Below are positions 2-8,369 of a stretch of 54,340 nucleotides of DNA, in pieces; the stretch's first letter is position 1; each line of letters opens with the position of its first letter. The position numbers and the translations under genes are program-made. The notes beneath the pieces are model-generated. The model was not told the origin of the DNA. It saw only the letters and a program-made list of their open reading frames with translations, and made no database searches. Source of the stretch: Candidatus Paralachnospira caecorum (GTDB lineage Bacteria > Bacillota > Clostridia > Lachnospirales > Lachnospiraceae). The stretch covers positions 1 to 54,340 of the forward strand of contig CAJFHG010000014.1 in NCBI GenBank assembly GCA_904379015.1, given 5' to 3'.

Positions 2-3000
2 TTTGAGGAGGGTACGACACGGATCGCGAGGAGGCTGTTTGACAGCTGCAGTACGCTGGAGGAGATCGAGCTGCCGGAGAGCGTGACCCAGATCGGGGAA
101 TACGCCTTTGCATCCTGTACAAATCTTGCTGTCATGAGTCTTGGACGGGAGCTCACCCAGATCGACGCCCATGCTTTTGACGGCTGTTCCAATCTGCGGT
201 TTTATGTAGAATACGGGACAAAAAGTCATATATGCGCAATAGAAAACAGACTGAAGCCTAATTTGACATCCTTTGGATATGAGGATTATACAGACCTTGC
301 CATTCAGCCCGGATGTACCTATTATGCGGATTTTGGATCTCTGAGCAGCAGCGGTTATGTGAAGGTCAGTCTGCATTATGAGCTGTCGGAGGAAAAATTC
401 AGCCAGTCCGGTCAGCATTATATTCGTTTTTACCTGCCGCAGGGGTCTGAAATTTTCCGGGAGACGATCAAAGCGGACGGGGAGATTGTCACGGAATATA
501 CAGAAGAGGACGGCGTTTTTCTGATTCCGATTGAAAAGCCGCAGGGAGATATCAGCTATGGTTTTTCACCTGCGGAGGTCTCAGATTTGGTTACGGCTGC
601 CATATATGAGTATCAGAGCGGAGGCCGGACAAAAAAAGAAGTGCTGGGCTATGACAACAGTTCCCGTTCGATTTTAACGGTCAGCTGTGATGATCAGGTT
701 GCTTCCCCGGAGTTTACAGTAACAGGGCTGGGAGAGCCTTCAGCTGAAATCCGGCTTTATCTGAATGGTACGCTTCTGACGACAGTGACGGCATTGAAAA
801 ACGGAACATACAGAGCGGCCGTGACGATCCCGGATCCGGTGAGCGGCGCCGCATATATTCTGGAGGCCAGGAACGGGGCGGATGAAAGCCAGAGGGCACA
901 GACTGTATTCCGGTACGACGATACGGCGCCTGAGCTTACGGAATTCAAACTGTATTACAATAATCACAGAGACACAGAGCTGGATTTGCTGAATGCTCAG
1001 ACAAAGCAGTATGTGTCGTTTAATCCGAAGGTGCCGTTTACCTTTACTGTCAGATTCGATGATGCGGAGGCGGTCGAACAGGTGTATATTGTCAGCACGA
1101 GGAATAATGAACGGAAGCTTATGGAGGCGGAGTATGACCCGGCTTCGGATCAGTTTATCGCGAGCGGATATTTTGACGAATCGAATCGATCTTATGTACC
1201 GGGGACGCTGAGTGTAGAATACAGGCCTGTGCAGGACGAGGTGAAGGTCGGACAGGATGTGGACTGGGACAGCATGTATCAAAGTCTCTCCGCCGATATG
1301 AAAAAGACCAAGATTACAACCGTGACAGAAGGAGGTCAGCAGCGGTACCAGTTTGATTTTTCCGGCGTTCATGAGGGGCTGCGTAATACGGGGATTGACC
1401 TGATCATTTCGTCGATCGACAATGCGGTCGGGACGGAGCTGGATGAATGGAAAAGCCTTGGAGAAACTCTTTACCAGTTCGGCGGATATTTTGTTTCCGG
1501 ATTAGACGAGGATCGCTATATTGCAGCGTCTCATTCCGATCCTGTGGAGTATACCCTGATGTTCGCGAAGGATTCAGCAGATCTGAGCAAAGGAGCAGTG
1601 AAGGTGCAGATCAGGCTTCAGAAGGATTCTGAATGGACGAAATGGGATGATGCGGCGGAGCAGCTGAGTCTTGTGAGCTCCGGACTGTCTGCGGCATCGG
1701 ATATTTACGGATTTGCCCAGGAGAGAGAGGAACTGGTCCGGGAGATTTATCAGTCTCCGGACATCAAGGATAAGGAGGAGGCTGTCAGAAAGGCAAACGA
1801 GCTGTTTGAGGATCAGAAAGCGTATACGATTTTGATGACGCTCCTTCCTATGCTTGTGACATCCGTGGGCGTTACCGGTCCGGTCGGAATCGGATTTACC
1901 GGGCTGGTTGCCGTGATCGGCACGCTTTCGGCCCTCCTCTGGCAGTATCGCGTCAATCATATTAAGGGCGAGGAGGTTGAGATCCGGTGGGCGATCGACC
2001 CCAGCGGCTATGTTTATGAAGCGGTGGAGAGCAACCGTCTCAGCGGTGTGAAGACTACGGCATATTACAAGGAAAAACCGGAAGATACGGAGGCGATCCT
2101 CTGGGACGCGTCAGAATATGATCAGAAGAATCCCCTGTATACGGACGGGAATGGCGAATATGCCTGGGATGTACCGGAGGGATATTGGCAGGTGAAGTAT
2201 GAGAAAGAAGGCTATGAGACCGTATACAGCGACTGGCTGCCTGTTCCGCCGCCCCAGACAGAGGTGAATATCGGGATGGTGTCAAAGGAGAAGCCGGTAC
2301 TGGAAAGCGCCGTGATCTACGCGGATCATGCGGATCTTGTGTTCTCAAAATATATGGCGCCGGATACGGTTTCCGCCCTGAAGCTTACGGATGAGGCAGG
2401 AAACAGCATTCCCTATACGCTCGTTTACGATACGTCAGAGACGAATGCCGACGGCGTCAGATATGCGAAGCGCTGCAGACTTCAGTTTGCGGCCGGTACG
2501 GTCCTGGTACCGGGGAGCGCCTGCGTCCTTACGATCACCGGTACGGAAAAAAGCTACGCGGATGTGGCGATGGATTCGGCTGTGATTCCGATGGCAGTCC
2601 GGAAGAACGTGGAAATTATCGCGCCGGAGGCGGTGACAGTCGCCATGGGTGAAACGGCCGCGGTTCCTGTGCAGATTGTGAACTGGGAAGGCGGGACGGC
2701 AGTGGAGGCTGTTTCAGAAGCAGAGGCGATCGCTTCAGTGGAACCGGCGGAAGAGGGAAGGATTCTGATCACAGGGCGGATCTATGGAGAAGTCAATGTT
2801 GTGGTTCGGATCCCCGGAACCGATGTGACGAAAACGATCCGGGTTACGATCGGAAAACAGACAGAGATTCCGCCGGCAGCTCCTCTGGTTGTTCTGCCCC
2901 AGTCCGTTTACAGGATGACGGAAGGAGAATCGCTGACGATCGAACCGGAAATTTATCCGGACAGCACACTGGCGGGCAGCTGGAGCGTGACTGACGGCGC

Positions 3001-3697
3001 CGGAATCGTGGCGCTTGAGGGAAATACGGTTACGGCGCTGGCGGAGGGAGAGACCGTACTGCGCTATACGCTGGCAGACCATGAAGAGATTTATGCGGAA
3101 TGCACGATTATCGTCATGGCGGACGGGGCGGCGGTAACGCTTCCATACAGTGATGTAAAGGAAGACGACTGGTTCTATGGCGAGGTAAAATATGTATATG
3201 TGAATGGAATTATGACGGGGTATGGAGACGGGAGCCAATTCGGCCCCTATAATAACCTGGCCCGCGCGGAGTTTGCCCAGATCATCTATCGCCTGGAGGG
3301 AGAGCCTGTGCCCGGGGCGCAGAACCGCTTCCCTGATGTGGGAGAGGCGGACTGGTACAGAAATGCAGTGGTATGGGCCTATAATGCGGGAGTCGTGACC
3401 GGATATTCCAACGGGAACTTTGGTCCTGCGGACAAGATCACGAGAGAACAGATGGCGGTCATGATGTATCGTTACGCGGAAATGAAGGGGTATGACGTGC
3501 GGGAATCCGCAGATTTCAGCCATTATCAGGATGCGGCCAATGTCAGTCCTTTTGCCGGGAAAGCCATGAGCTGGGCCGTGGCCGTGGGCCTGATCAGCGG
3601 GAAATACGGCCAGACACGGCTGGATCCCCAGGGGAGCGCGAGCCGCGCCGAGTGCGCGATTATCCTTACACGATTTATGCAGATTTACAATCTGTAG
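2..3697 (+). CDS. Large secreted LRR / Ig-like / SLH surface protein, 5' end missing
   Basis: The frame is open to the left edge, so this is the C-terminal 1231 residues of a larger protein; the first in-frame GTG at 83 is not a believable start. The first residues are a BspA-type LRR_5 repeat (hydrophobic LPESVTQIGEYAF and DAHAFDGC units). Then come beta-rich regions, a hydrophobic glycine-rich stretch at about residues 606-650, a carboxypeptidase-regulatory-like fold near 665-760, a SbsA/Big_5-like region, two Big-type Ig domains (about 860-1040) and three SLH repeats (about 1046-1231) with the usual ITREQMAVMMYRY-type helices. Family knowledge: SLH triplets bind pyruvylated secondary wall polymer, so the protein probably sits on the cell surface with LRR and Ig domains outward. 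The ligand is unknown. It shares the LRR plus SLH plan with the CHAP protein at 18636-20867. The architecture is certain; the function is only inferred. Confidence 0.88.
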   Translation, partial: FEEGTTRIARRLFDSCSTLEEIELPESVTQIGEYAFASCTNLAVMSLGRELTQIDAHAFDGCSNLRFYVEYGTKSHICAIENRLKPNLTSFGYEDYTDLAIQPGCTYYADFGSLSSSGYVKVSLHYELSEEKFSQSGQHYIRFYLPQGSEIFRETIKADGEIVTEYTEEDGVFLIPIEKPQGDISYGFSPAEVSDLVTAAIYEYQSGGRTKKEVLGYDNSSRSILTVSCDDQVASPEFTVTGLGEPSAEIRLYLNGTLLTTVTALKNGTYRAAVTIPDPVSGAAYILEARNGADESQRAQTVFRYDDTAPELTEFKLYYNNHRDTELDLLNAQTKQYVSFNPKVPFTFTVRFDDAEAVEQVYIVSTRNNERKLMEAEYDPASDQFIASGYFDESNRSYVPGTLSVEYRPVQDEVKVGQDVDWDSMYQSLSADMKKTKITTVTEGGQQRYQFDFSGVHEGLRNTGIDLIISSIDNAVGTELDEWKSLGETLYQFGGYFVSGLDEDRYIAASHSDPVEYTLMFAKDSADLSKGAVKVQIRLQKDSEWTKWDDAAEQLSLVSSGLSAASDIYGFAQEREELVREIYQSPDIKDKEEAVRKANELFEDQKAYTILMTLLPMLVTSVGVTGPVGIGFTGLVAVIGTLSALLWQYRVNHIKGEEVEIRWAIDPSGYVYEAVESNRLSGVKTTAYYKEKPEDTEAILWDASEYDQKNPLYTDGNGEYAWDVPEGYWQVKYEKEGYETVYSDWLPVPPPQTEVNIGMVSKEKPVLESAVIYADHADLVFSKYMAPDTVSALKLTDEAGNSIPYTLVYDTSETNADGVRYAKRCRLQFAAGTVLVPGSACVLTITGTEKSYADVAMDSAVIPMAVRKNVEIIAPEAVTVAMGETAAVPVQIVNWEGGTAVEAVSEAEAIASVEPAEEGRILITGRIYGEVNVVVRIPGTDVTKTIRVTIGKQTEIPPAAPLVVLPQSVYRMTEGESLTIEPEIYPDSTLAGSWSVTDGAGIVALEGNTVTALAEGETVLRYTLADHEEIYAECTIIVMADGAAVTLPYSDVKEDDWFYGEVKYVYVNGIMTGYGDGSQFGPYNNLARAEFAQIIYRLEGEPVPGAQNRFPDVGEADWYRNAVVWAYNAGVVTGYSNGNFGPADKITREQMAVMMYRYAEMKGYDVRESADFSHYQDAANVSPFAGKAMSWAVAVGLISGKYGQTRLDPQGSASRAECAIILTRFMQIYNL

Positions 3698-3822: not shown

Positions 3823-5277
3823 TCAGGCAGGAGTTTCGAAAATCCCCGCGAAAAGCAGAGAACCCTCGGAAGAGACGATGCCATAGAGGAAGGGGCGGTT
3901 CAGGATCATTTCGGCCCGTCCTTCCGGCATGGCCGCGCCTGCGTAATCGATCTTTGTGAAAGCGGAGGCTTCTACACCCTTTTCATCGATGCCGATACAG
4001 GTTTCCTGCGTGATGCCGGAGATCCAGATATCATAGTCTGTGATTTCCGAGAAATCGGCATCGCCGCCGAAGGCAGAGTCAATGCCGGCGGCCTGAAGCA
4101 TTTCATTCAGATTCATGGCGGAGGAAAAACGGAATTTTGGAATCTGCCAGACGACCTCGCCGGAATAGTCCTCGCCCCCCTCAAAGGCTTCCTGCAGCCT
4201 CTCAGGGGTAGCTGCCAGCTCCTGAGGGGATATGGTTTCATCCGGCAGGATGAAGATCATGCGGCCTCCGTTTTTCAGTCCCAGACTGGCGCGGGTGAAT
4301 CCGTTTCCCACCGAAAACGAGGCGGAACCAAAGGTCTGGTTCATAAAGTCGCAGGATACAGAGGAGCCGTCCGCCAGATAGAAGCTGTCCGGTTCTGTGC
4401 GGGATTCAGAAAACCGGGTGACCCATTCGTCGTGGAAATAAACGGTGTTGAGGATGGAGAGGACAGACTGGGAGTCCGGCGTGAAGGAGGGCGTCAGAGT
4501 TCCCTCTGTCTGGCCGGCGATCCAGTGTGCCATGGCCTCTGCCGTCTCCTGTGCCTGAAGATCCATGGAGAAGGATTCCGCGTAAAAGTTCCGGGCCGCG
4601 TTTTCGAGAAAGCCCTGTTTCAGCTGGATGGAATCATCCATCCAGAGAGAGCTGGCGATTTTCTGGCTGCCGATCTCATTTTCCAGATAAAGGAGCCGGT
4701 ACAGGTTTCCGCACTGGAGGGACAGATCTTCCGCGTTATCCATGCCCAGAAGGGACAGGAGTTCTTCTTGTGTTTCTCCGCCGGCTCCGGAGGCGGTCAG
4801 CGCCAGCGCGTAATAGAGGGAGAGCGGAGAATAATTGAGATTGTCTCTGCTTCGGGAGAGGAGCGCGGAGGCGGTTTCATAGGAAAAATTCCGGATGGCT
4901 TCCGTAAAATCCTCACTTACCGGATTGGCTTCGCGGATGCTCCGCTCTGTATCAAAATCAGAAAATTCATAGGTGTCCGGCATGGATACCTGGACCAGAG
5001 GAGCGGCGGAAGATGATCCGGACAGGGGCGGGACCGCGGTCCTGACGGCCAGAAAGATGCCGGCGCCCAGGAAAAGAACGGCACAGGCGGCTGCGGTGAT
5101 CCGGCGCCATTTTCCTGCGGGACGGAGAATGGAAGCGGCGTTTTTGCCGCGGCCGTTTTCCTTTCCGAAATCGGGATATTCTGCTTCTGATATCAGATCG
5201 TCGGGTACATTGGTGACCGCGTCCATCAGCCTCCGCTCTTTTTCATAGCTGCTGTCTGAGTGAACTGTTTTTTTCAT
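3823..5277 (-). CDS. Membrane-anchored serpin-family protein
   Basis: 484 residues. The ATG at 5277 overlaps the stop of the upstream sigma factor gene (ATGA), so the two are translationally coupled; longer in-frame starts would run through that gene and are rejected. Residues 1-58 are a charged cytoplasmic tail, 60-78 a single transmembrane segment, and about 105-484 an extracellular serpin fold (NYSPLSLYYALAL, NTVYFHDEW, FILPDE, final NRPFLYGI). The reactive-centre region starts at DEKGVEASAFT (about 431-441). Counting from the conserved Glu places P1 near Ala447, suggesting an elastase-like target, but Phe at P9 and Lys at P7 are bulky for an insertion hinge. Family knowledge: inhibitory serpins trap serine or cysteine proteases covalently. 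Inference: in the place usually held by an anti-sigma factor, this protein could report extracellular protease activity to the sigma factor. The serpin call is firm; inhibitory activity and a regulatory role are unproven. Confidence 0.88.
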   Translation of the reverse strand: MKKTVHSDSSYEKERRLMDAVTNVPDDLISEAEYPDFGKENGRGKNAASILRPAGKWRRITAAACAVLFLGAGIFLAVRTAVPPLSGSSSAAPLVQVSMPDTYEFSDFDTERSIREANPVSEDFTEAIRNFSYETASALLSRSRDNLNYSPLSLYYALALTASGAGGETQEELLSLLGMDNAEDLSLQCGNLYRLLYLENEIGSQKIASSLWMDDSIQLKQGFLENAARNFYAESFSMDLQAQETAEAMAHWIAGQTEGTLTPSFTPDSQSVLSILNTVYFHDEWVTRFSESRTEPDSFYLADGSSVSCDFMNQTFGSASFSVGNGFTRASLGLKNGGRMIFILPDETISPQELAATPERLQEAFEGGEDYSGEVVWQIPKFRFSSAMNLNEMLQAAGIDSAFGGDADFSEITDYDIWISGITQETCIGIDEKGVEASAFTKIDYAGAAMPEGRAEMILNRPFLYGIVSSEGSLLFAGIFETPA

Positions 5278-5846
5278 AGCGTGATTCCCTCCTTTTCCAG
5301 AAATATTTTCAGGGATTTCCGGAGGCGGAACATACGTCCGGCCAGCCTGCCGGCGGGGATGCCGCAGGCTTCTGCAAGCTCGGAAAGGCTGTCGCCGTAC
5401 CAGTAGCGGCGCAGAAACAGGACGCGGCTGCCGGCGGGCAGGCCCCGGAGCCAGCTGACGAGTGTCTCCGTCAGGAATGTTTCGTCTGTTTCGTGTTCTA
5501 CAGTGCGAGGGGACGGAATACATTCGGAAAGCTCGGAAAGCAGCAGGCAGTTCGCCGGGCCGCCCCGCTTTTCCGCCCGGTTTTTCTGCCAGCGGTTCAG
5601 AGAAAGATTCCGGATGATCCGGCCCAGATAGGCGAACAGACAGCCGGGCCGCTGCGGCGGAATGGATGTCCAGGCTTTCATGTAGGTATCGTTCAGACAT
5701 TCTTCACTGTCCTCATGACTGGACAGAATACGGAAGGAAATCCGTTTCAGAGGAATACCGTATTTCGCGTGGCTGCCGGAGATGGCAGCCTCATCTCTTT
5801 TCCAGAAAAGCTCTATGATCTGCTGATCATCCATGATTTCGTTCAT
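5274..5846 (-). CDS. ECF-type RNA polymerase sigma factor
   Basis: 190 residues. The chosen ATG at 5846 follows an AGGGAGGGG Shine-Dalgarno; an upstream in-frame start at 5912 lacks one. Region 2 is at about 20-85 (SEECLNDTYMKAW, then LFAYLGRIIRNLSLNRW), a short linker follows, and region 4 is a helix-turn-helix at about 130-185 (LPAGSRVLFLRRYWYGDSLSELA, LRKSLKIFLEKEGI). This is the compact two-region ECF plan, and no C-terminal extension is present. The stop overlaps the start of the serpin gene by four bases, which ties the two products together. The usual ECF partner is a membrane anti-sigma factor; none is present here apart from the serpin, whose cytoplasmic tail could play that part. 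A short palindrome TGTCC-C-GGACA lies upstream at 5897-5907. Target promoters cannot be read from the sequence. Confidence 0.9.
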   Translation of the reverse strand: MNEIMDDQQIIELFWKRDEAAISGSHAKYGIPLKRISFRILSSHEDSEECLNDTYMKAWTSIPPQRPGCLFAYLGRIIRNLSLNRWQKNRAEKRGGPANCLLLSELSECIPSPRTVEHETDETFLTETLVSWLRGLPAGSRVLFLRRYWYGDSLSELAEACGIPAGRLAGRMFRLRKSLKIFLEKEGITL

Positions 5847-5912
5847 ATGCTCACCCCTCCCTTTACTGATATAGACAGGAATCAGAGGAAAATATTTGTC
5901 CCGGACAGACAA

Positions 5913-6599: not shown

Positions 6600-7118
6600 G
6601 TGGCGGCTTATCTGGATATCTTCAAGCGGTTGTTTATTACAGACAATCAGCCGCCCTTCTTCTCTGGCATCCGCTCTTCTGTGCGGGTGAAGCAGGCGGA
6701 GAAGCGGCACTTTGCCGACCCTTCTCTGGCCTGCGCCCTGCTGAAGGCCACGCCTGCCGGGCTGCTGGGGGATCTGGAAACTCTGGGTTTCCTTTTTGAG
6801 GCTCTGTGCGAGCGGGATCTGCGAATTTATGCCGAGTCCTTCGGAGCGCATCTCTATCACTATCAGGACTACAAAAATCAGGAGATCGACGCGGTGATCG
6901 AACTGCCTGACGGCCAATGGTGCGCCTTTGAGATCAAACTGGGGGCCAACCAGATCGACGCCGCAGCGGAGAACCTGCTGGAGATCAAAAGGCAAATTGA
7001 GGCGGACCCAAAAGGCAGGCCGCCAGCGGTTCTGTGCGTTTTGTGCGGCATGGCTCATGCGGCCTATCAGCGGCCGGACGGGGTGTTTGTGGTGCCCGTG
7101 ACGGCGTTAAGAGAGTAA
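6600..7118 (+). pseudogene. C-terminal remnant of an AAA_14 / DUF4143 ATPase
   Basis: 172 codons encode only the DUF4143 part (YLDIFKRLFITDNQPPF, then the endonuclease-like core EIDAVIELPDGQWCAFEIKLG). Intact relatives run to roughly 400-450 residues with an N-terminal Walker-type ATPase, which is missing here. An in-frame TGA lies just before the GTG at 6600, and no Shine-Dalgarno is seen. The reverse strand at 6516-6596 reads as an unrelated helical C-terminus, which suggests a deletion or rearrangement joined two unrelated ends near 6595. Family members are common accessory ATPases of uncertain role. It is probably non-functional, though the truncated domain could still be expressed. Confidence 0.72.
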
Positions 7119-7289: not shown

Positions 7290-8369
7290 ATGGCGGATAT
7301 AATGGCGGCGAAAATTATCGGGACCGGGAGTTACGTCCCGGATCAAGTGATTACCAATGACGATCTGTCAGAAATGGTGGATACCAGCGACGCCTGGATC
7401 AGGGAGCGGACGGGGATCCGGGCCCGAAGGATCACAGAGACGGGAACTGCGGACATGGCCGCGCGGGCGGCTTTGAAGGCAATGGAAAACGCGGGAATTT
7501 CCGGGGATGAGCTGGATCTGATCATTGTGGGGACTTCTACCGGAGACTGGCTGTTTCCGAGCACGGCCTGTGAAGTACAGGCGGCAGTGGGGGCCGGCCG
7601 GGCGGTATGCTTTGATCTGAGCGCGGCATGTTCAGGATTTTTGTTTTCACTGAACACGGCGGCAGTTTATCTTGATTCCGGCGCGTACCGGACGGCTCTG
7701 GTCGTCGGCGCGGACAGTTTGTCGAAAACGGTAGACTGGAAGGACAGGAGTACCTGCATTCTCTTTGGGGACGGCGCGGGAGCGGCTGTGCTCAGGAGAG
7801 AAGAGTCTGCGGCCGGTACGGAAAAGACCCGGCGGGGAAATTCGGAAGATCCGGCAGGCCCGGACAGTCCGGGAGCGCCGGAGAGTTTGGAATCCGGAGG
7901 GATCGGCCCCTTTTTTATGGGTTCTGACGGAAACCGGAGCGAATATCTGACCAGTCCGTCCACGAGCCTGCGCAATATGTTTGTGGAAGAAAAACCTACC
8001 GGATATATGGCCATGAACGGTCAGGAGGTTTTTAAATTCGCGGTGAAGACCGTTCCGGAGGCCATCGGCCATGTGCTTGCGCAGGCAGGGCTTGCGCCGG
8101 ACGATATCAAATATTTTGTTCTGCACCAGGCCAATGAGCGGATCATCGCCTCTGTCGCGAAGCGGATGAAGCAGCCCATGGAGAAATTTCCTGTGAACCT
8201 TGACAGGTACGGGAATACCTCCGGCGCCAGCATTCCGATCCTCTTAGATGAGCTGAACCGAAAGGGAATGCTCAGGACGGGAGACCGGCTGGTGCTGTCC
8301 GGATTCGGCGCAGGACTTACATGGGGCGCGTCTGTTGTAACCTGGCAGGCATCTGCCGGATCAATATAA
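7290..8369 (+). CDS. fabH: Beta-ketoacyl-ACP synthase III
   Basis: Starts fatty-acid synthesis by condensing acetyl-CoA (or a branched acyl-CoA) with malonyl-ACP in the cytoplasm. The catalytic triad is visible: Cys114 (LSAACSGF), His279 (VLHQANERI) and Asn309 (RYGNTSGAS). At 359 residues it exceeds the usual ~320 because of a Gly/Ser/Pro/Glu-rich insertion at about residues 170-203. That insertion sits in a loop after the GDGAGAAVLRREE segment and does not disturb the motifs. AAGGAAT at 7272-7278 serves the ATG at 7290; an alternative ATG at 7302 has no better site. It is the first gene of the operon, directly behind the FabT box, as in S. pneumoniae. Confidence 0.95.
   Translation: MADIMAAKIIGTGSYVPDQVITNDDLSEMVDTSDAWIRERTGIRARRITETGTADMAARAALKAMENAGISGDELDLIIVGTSTGDWLFPSTACEVQAAVGAGRAVCFDLSAACSGFLFSLNTAAVYLDSGAYRTALVVGADSLSKTVDWKDRSTCILFGDGAGAAVLRREESAAGTEKTRRGNSEDPAGPDSPGAPESLESGGIGPFFMGSDGNRSEYLTSPSTSLRNMFVEEKPTGYMAMNGQEVFKFAVKTVPEAIGHVLAQAGLAPDDIKYFVLHQANERIIASVAKRMKQPMEKFPVNLDRYGNTSGASIPILLDELNRKGMLRTGDRLVLSGFGAGLTWGASVVTWQASAGSI

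Follow-up and report, generated by a model that had tools for sequence, protein, structure and literature searches.

In Bacillus subtilis, the membrane anti-sigma factor RsiV holds the extracytoplasmic function (ECF) sigma factor SigV. It binds to lysozyme at the active site, inhibiting the enzyme and signalling that it is present, whereupon signal peptidase and a site-2 protease cleave RsiV (PMC5014341 and PMC6066255). The RsgI proteins of Clostridium thermocellum are likewise membrane anti-sigma factors encoded beside their sigma factors and proposed to sense ligands outside the cell; there, the proposed signals are polysaccharides and the sigma factor is SigI (available part of PMC3990059). 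Bacterial serpins include tengpin, whose N-terminal tail stabilises the native state, the siropins and the B. longum serpin; the role of serpins in many prokaryotes has been called enigmatic, and the available text of PMC8233489 mentions no sigma partner for them and lacks the word sigma. Here we describe a locus that pairs an ECF sigma factor with a membrane-anchored serpin. It lies at positions 3823-5846 of a stretch of 54,340 nucleotides (contig CAJFHG010000014.1, hereafter the window) from Candidatus Paralachnospira caecorum, a member of the Lachnospiraceae. Our searches of open-access full-text literature found no description of a serpin paired with an ECF sigma or anti-sigma factor, nor of a membrane or sensor serpin, and the available parts of PMC3990059 and PMC10059941 describe no sigma-serpin pairing.

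We read the locus, with a probability of roughly 60%, as a two-gene signalling unit in which an ECF sigma factor is controlled by a membrane anti-sigma factor with a serpin as sensor domain, serving as a protease sensor. Of this reading, the sequences show the gene pairing, a cytosolic tail module that tracks the sigma clade, an inhibitory-type reactive loop and a clade-specific promoter-like motif. As with RsiV and SigV, the ectodomain of a membrane anti-sigma factor would be inhibitor and receptor of an attacking enzyme at once, and an ECF sigma factor would be released. Unlike the window protein, RsiV as described in these sources carries a lysozyme-binding ectodomain rather than a serpin; Pfam finds only the Serpin family in the window protein, with no class I anti-sigma domain and no DUF4179, including at its membrane helix, which sets it apart from the RsiV/DUF4179 family. 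A membrane anti-sigma factor with an inhibitor as its sensor is a known kind of system; the proposed novelty lies in a serpin as that inhibitor and in a putative sigma-binding tail that is not a recognised class I domain.

Both genes are on the minus strand. The sigma factor gene (5274-5846, 190 amino acids) was assigned with Pfam and NCBIfam profiles: it exceeds the cut-off of the NCBIfam sigma70-ECF model TIGR02937 (E 5.4e-15, 55.4 bits against 42.9) and contains region 2 (Sigma70_r2, E 1.2e-7, 31.9 bits, over the cut-off of 24) together with a region 4 match below its threshold (Sigma70_r4_2, E 1.2e-4, 22.1 bits, under 25.7). SigW is the nearest solved relative of its profile (E 4.8e-19). 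The serpin gene (3823-5277, 484 amino acids) occupies the anti-sigma position, and its start shares the bases 5274-5277, reading ATGA, with the sigma stop. A 19-residue hydropathy scan finds one membrane segment in its product, residues 60-78 (5044-5100), leaving a cytosolic tail of 59 residues as a putative sigma-binding module (5101-5277, recognised by the tail profile A1 introduced below), with its core ERRLMDAVTNVPDDLISEA at residues 14-32 (5182-5238). The net charge is +5 over the 20 residues before the helix and +1 over the 20 after it; this excess of positive charge on the tail side fits a topology with the tail inside. The serpin domain proper spans residues 127-482 (3832-4899; PF00079, E 3e-68, 231 bits against a cut-off of 27) and is complete, covering profile positions 2-369 of 370. 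It is the only serpin found in its genome (2.59 Mb, 55 contigs). The initial annotation, made from the sequence alone, had given the same outer coordinates of the pair and the same ATGA overlap, and had described a tail of about 58 residues, one helix and a full serpin fold, all of which our analysis bears out to within a residue.

We then asked how often such pairs occur. Serpins are present in 140 of 397 genomes in a family-level search, and 135 family loci (L001-L135, which do not represent every match) yielded 150 distinct serpin open reading frames (ORFs). A sigma-like ORF lies directly upstream in 20 of these, two of them atypical (L038 and L104, one a fragment and one a chimera), and 11 of the 20 junctions show a 4-base overlap (ATGA or GTGA) as in the window. 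A strict tail pattern occurs in 11 of the 20 sigma-adjacent serpins and in none of the 130 without an adjacent sigma gene. Looser versions of the tail are visible by eye in six of the remaining nine (L037, L038, L039, L095, L104 and L108), and no version was seen by eye in L009, L114 or the first serpin of L074. Seven close relatives, used to scan named genomes, added 67 further loci, partly from the same genomes, including a complete pair in Cohnella sp. AR92 (L202), one of the Paenibacillaceae.

Pooling all distinct serpins with at least 1 kb of upstream sequence gave 202, of which 37 are sigma-adjacent; by eye, one of these (L233) belongs to a SpoIIA-type operon rather than an ECF-type pair, and dropping it leaves 36. 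Sigma gene and tail occur together in 30, the sigma gene only in 7 (L233 among them), the tail module only in 4 and neither in 161 (Fisher 7e-25). Some members of the pooled set were retrieved through homology to the window serpin or tail, others had gone into the tail profile, and its counts do not measure prevalence; with the named training loci removed they become 19, 7, 4 and 161, near-copies of some training loci remaining. On the counts in the family and pooled sets, and on those for the tail in 61 genomes and in all loci up to L260 (below), we reject a chance pairing. Nor are serpins general ECF partners, as 165 of the 202 lack an adjacent sigma gene. One locus (L037:3-4012, minus strand) carries a tandem of two sigma-serpin units, with the locus ending inside the second serpin (E 3e-8), and in Tissierella praeacuta (L232:2965-4196) a tail-bearing serpin is split over two frames beside no sigma gene, probably a decaying unit to judge from its sequence.

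To examine the tail apart from the serpin, we used a profile built from 17 tails (A1) and a second built from their sigma factors (A2). The tail consensus is approximately L..AI..I.DDLIEEA. In the window genome, A1 has three strong matches (E 2.6e-15, 4.3e-13 and 1.3e-9); the next (9e-4) begins only at profile position 28 and misses the tail core. A2 likewise has three strong matches (E 1.1e-20 or better), plus four weaker ones, and each strong sigma match lies directly upstream of one strong tail match. The genome's two other tail proteins carry different, non-serpin ectodomains. Searched on its own in 61 genomes, the tail is present in 25 at E 1e-6 or better (44 matches). Among the 31 distinct tail proteins examined from these matches, a few of them shortened by contig or locus ends, 29 are encoded directly behind a sigma factor of the A2 clade and only 8 are serpins. 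The exceptions are L193 and L183, the latter being the third gene in the order sigma factor, secreted serpin, tail-bearing serpin (L074:1127-4858, plus strand). When every locus up to L260 is taken in, there are 68 distinct tail proteins, including the 17 used for the profile; 63 of them directly follow an A2-clade sigma gene, and 32 of the 63 are serpins, counting the cut second L037 unit (31 before this correction). Ten non-serpin tail proteins submitted to Pfam gave one beta-propeller, one Ig-like domain, a DUF4179 match below cut-off (L193, E 8.4e-6), a weak propeller and a weak DUF2283 match, with five showing no match.

The tail thus tracks the sigma clade also without a serpin, which suggests that it is probably a little-described anti-sigma module, with the serpin as one swappable ectodomain. 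Its gene stands where that of a membrane anti-sigma factor is expected, directly downstream of the sigma gene and coupled to it, by the ATGA overlap in the window and by adjacency in the 63 of 68. The initial annotation had placed the serpin itself in the anti-sigma position and had named a lack of conserved pairing in relatives as what would speak against its proposal. The pairing is kept, both among the family serpins and in the pooled set, and the tail follows the sigma clade; what changes is the part given to the serpin, which is one of several ectodomains. The tail has no convincing Pfam family match among the 17 tails: no class I anti-sigma domain, of the zinc-finger or ASD kind, is among their matches, and DUF4179 is matched weakly by 5 of the 17 (best E 0.028).

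The distances among tails correlate with those among their sigma factors (r 0.58, 58 pairs, 0 of 500 permutations), with coefficients of 0.57 for sigma region 4, 0.44 for region 2 and 0.39 for the linker (0 of 500 permutations each). Two unusual regulators bear on where the tail might bind. In L104:3160-3627 (minus strand), upstream of a tail-bearing serpin, an XRE-type DNA-binding helix-turn-helix is joined to sigma region 4, and region 2 is gone. At C37:18183-18643 in the window genome (L137, L161), only sigma profile positions 104-186, corresponding to region 4, are recognisable; its tail protein has another, non-serpin ectodomain. Both regulators keep their tail partner with region 4 only, which suggests region 4 as the main binding site for the tail. 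Separately, alignments of the joined chains (A5, A6) matched the tail to the N-terminus of the sigma factor (M.D..II.LYW.RDE.AI.E against M..E.LLDAI..IDDDLIEEA), which may reflect no more than end anchoring, or else mimicry.

Several observations weigh against our reading. The tail has no solved relative in a structure search. An NCBIfam anti-sigma model matches 7 of the 17 tails with a best E of 0.005; one tail matches an unrelated flagellar model at 9e-4, placing such library matches at noise level. A predicted fold of sigma factor and tail, read through one stop in L195, left the tail unplaced (predicted local distance difference test score, pLDDT, about 30; predicted template modelling score 0.50), a weak test as the alignment had no rows for the tail. 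The sigma-tail distance correlation is confounded by shared descent, and four module serpins have no sigma gene directly upstream (L201, L219, L232 and the second serpin of L074). Finally, the inhibitory hinge and small predicted P1 residues described below (the latter in 105 of 154) are also common in other serpins, and the loop accordingly says inhibitor rather than sensor.

The AlphaFold model of the window protein has a serpin fold (mean pLDDT 74.6; 10-residue means mostly exceed 80 across the domain, and the tail scores poorly), and Foldseek aligns it to known serpins with template modelling scores of about 0.9 by target length. Tengpin is a close solved relative (2pee, E 3.2e-35). Among the 50 best structure matches, those with low root-mean-square deviation (2.2-2.6 A) include several titled as cleaved or protease-induced, among them miropin, and latent and native antithrombins align at larger deviations; these matches to the model are consistent with a loop able to insert. 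The window serpin has an inhibitory hinge, GVEASAFT, and the stretch from the hinge to the predicted P1' (DEKGVEASAFTKIDYAGAA, residues 431-449) lies at 3931-3987. Counting from the hinge with G434 as P15, the predicted P1 is Ala448 and P1' Ala449, an assignment that may be one residue off. The loop is readable in 29 of the 30 module serpins, where P15 is Gly in 29, P12 Ala or Gly in 29, P10 Ala in 27 and P8 Thr in 27. Their predicted P1 is small in 27 (18 Ala, 4 Gly, 3 Thr and 2 Ser) and another residue in 2, and 21 have Ala at the predicted P1'. Small residues at P1 suggest proteases of the elastase type. An unusual feature is an aromatic P9, commoner in module serpins (26/29) than in the other serpins with a readable loop (57 of 154; a further 34 of the 188 compared were unreadable).

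These loop features leave room for a different function of the serpin. The tail could be a true anti-sigma module while the serpin reads another ligand, as hormone-binding serpins do, or is only an anchored inhibitor, the sigma factor being freed by general envelope stress. This explanation, which we consider unlikely though the strongest of the competitors, draws on the beta-propeller, Ig-like and unassigned ectodomains carried by the same tail, with which the relay needs no protease, and on the loop features that other serpins share with module serpins. Against it, the inhibitory hinge residues are largely kept in the 29 readable module serpins, and the history of the sigma clade suggests that inhibitor function was recruited. 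On a tree of 63 sigma factors (58 from tail units and 5 from units with other tail types; its bootstrap has not settled, and the chimera L104 forms a long branch), the serpin label changes 11 times, at least 5 of these forced by well-supported branches, compared with 21 for shuffled labels. Relabelling one row, the second L037 unit, still gives 11 changes, or 10 without the five other-tail rows. These changes indicate that serpins were recruited to, or replaced at, the anti-sigma position several times. The clade that holds the window sigma factor has 14 rows, and each of them is paired with a serpin (support 98/96).

Serpins also occur with other tails. A second tail type is found with serpins behind more distant ECF factors in L009, L114 and L236, and a third in L231, L238 and L253, the first two of these behind more distant ECF factors and L253 showing no sigma match in our script. 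Searching their own genomes with these tails returned the known copies and two weak matches (L286 and L287), the former having no sigma match. From their sequences, the second and third types may be separate recruitments, at three loci each.

Other units raise the question of whether the serpin is simply a product of the sigma factor's regulon. In six loci (L094, L083, L090, L031, L071 and L110) the order is sigma factor, tail protein without serpin, then a serpin gene; a serpin lies about 0.8 kb further on in L223 and L056, and upstream in L011. A lipobox-like cysteine is visible by eye in the serpins of all these nine loci but L090. L083 has two serpins in a row, L074 a secreted and a tail-bearing membrane serpin in one unit, and L217 a tail-bearing serpin followed by a lipoprotein-like one. 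That serpins can be outputs is plain from the six loci with a separate serpin one gene further down. It is nonetheless improbable that the serpin is an output gene only and the membrane tail unrelated to the sigma factor: the middle protein carries the tail in the three-gene units, the tail also occurs on non-serpin proteins directly behind this sigma clade, and its strict pattern distinguishes the sigma-adjacent family serpins (11 of 20) from all others (0 of 130). Taken with the window-type units, the three-gene units indicate that serpins take part in these ECF units in two ways, as products in their own right and, in the window type, built into the putative anti-sigma factor.

A promoter-like motif marks the clade of the window sigma factor. 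GAATAT-N12-CCTGTCTATA, at 13 or more of 16 letters, precedes the sigma gene in 13 of 28 serpin-type upstream regions and in 0 of 27 others; should the second L037 region be among these 55, the counts would become 13/29 and 0/26. Because the motif was derived from the very sequences counted, more weight falls on the controls than on the number of matches: shuffled regions gave 0.06 on average (at most 1) and other spacer lengths at most 7. The 13 regions make up the full set of distinct upstream regions in the 14-row clade, the fourteenth member (L169) presumably being absent because its region repeats that of L032. In the window, the putative ECF promoter of the unit, (G)AATAT-N12-CCTGTCTATA at 5870-5897 (minus strand), lies before the sigma gene with one mismatch to the clade motif, and it is the only copy in the genome with at most one mismatch. 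At up to three mismatches the genome holds 12 matches versus 6 for the reversed pattern, and thus only the window copy stands out; we reject a wider regulon in this genome on the same counts. In 11 genomes of the genus, allowing two mismatches, there are 9 matches in 7 genomes. Five precede a sigma gene, tail and serpin (L261, L273, L275, L276 and L278), a sixth (L277) is found in the L032 unit, 52 bases upstream of the ATG of its sigma gene, and the remaining three (L262, L274 and L279) have no sigma-serpin unit at the motif. This distribution fits an autoregulated promoter with the unit itself as its main target. Autoregulated serpin expression has reportedly been found in Bifidobacterium breve as well; as far as the title of that report (Alvarez-Martin 2012, cited in PMC8201313) tells, it runs there through a two-component system.

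How might such a unit work? Because the pairing is kept in relatives, the serpin probably tells the cell of protease attack. We infer tail-sigma binding, a protease trigger, a proteolytic relay and autoregulation as the working parts. The tail would hold the sigma factor at the membrane, and the serpin outside would offer a bait loop with small residues at its predicted cleavage site. An elastase-like protease cutting this loop would be trapped as the serpin passes from its stressed to its relaxed form. The change in shape, perhaps by releasing the juxtamembrane segment, would expose the receptor to site-1 cleavage, and cleavage inside the membrane by a site-2 (M50) protease would then free the sigma factor. 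The freed sigma factor would activate its own promoter, yielding more sigma factor and more serpin, the serpin being also the defence. The window genome has one M50 protease gene, and M50 genes are also present in 14 of 14 control genomes.

The juxtamembrane segment (residues 79-121; 4915-5043, minus strand) is suggested as the place where the state of the receptor is read. P100 is invariant in the 19 module serpins of alignment A9, and the model has two isolated bridges, at residues 95 and 102. Since the N-terminal tail of tengpin stabilises its native state and this segment is kept, a contact lost on loop insertion could expose the receptor. The segment is kept across this serpin group and, by eye, also in some lipoprotein members.

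By analogy with RsiV, such regulated proteolysis of the receptor seems likelier than a direct push through the membrane. The initial annotation had the shape change of a cut serpin signal across the membrane. In the form closest to this, the helix would carry the stressed-to-relaxed movement mechanically to the tail and loosen it, the receptor staying uncleaved, a very doubtful proposition. Serpins do change shape greatly, and the model looks like loop-inserted ones, but one helix and a 59-residue tail offer little leverage, and RsiV, the best-studied analogue, works by regulated proteolysis (PMC5014341 and PMC6066255).

The sensing serpin may, more tentatively, be a suicide receptor. Each protease molecule sensed would be trapped covalently, and one receptor would therefore be spent per event; a dedicated promoter would refill exactly what is spent, and such units would have been built repeatedly by setting serpins on an anti-sigma tail.

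The genes next to the pair encode a GNAT acetyltransferase and, convergently, an SLH/LRR protein; neither is another anti-sigma factor. The latter (83-3697, plus strand) is a large protein with SLH domains and a weak match to BspA-type repeats, convergent to the serpin; an ORF resembling it also occurs in contig C5 (L262). On the plus strand at 6600-7118 lies a DUF4143 ORF (E 9.6e-24, profile positions 48-159 of 160), which may be what is left of the C-terminal part of an ATPase gene. A FabH-like ORF (7290-8369) is found near the unit here and, by eye, in two relatives of the genus (L275 and L278), from which the position of the unit may be conserved in the genus.

If our reading is correct, it would give bacterial serpins a regulatory function, and gut bacteria a way to sense the proteases of hosts or competitors directly. 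The principle described for RsiV, in which the inhibitor is the receptor, would extend from lysozyme to proteases. The analysis also exposes an anti-sigma-like tail with swappable ectodomains and no convincing Pfam family. And should the serpin indeed be a suicide receptor, a single unit of two genes would let the cell keep count of proteases and restore its shield.

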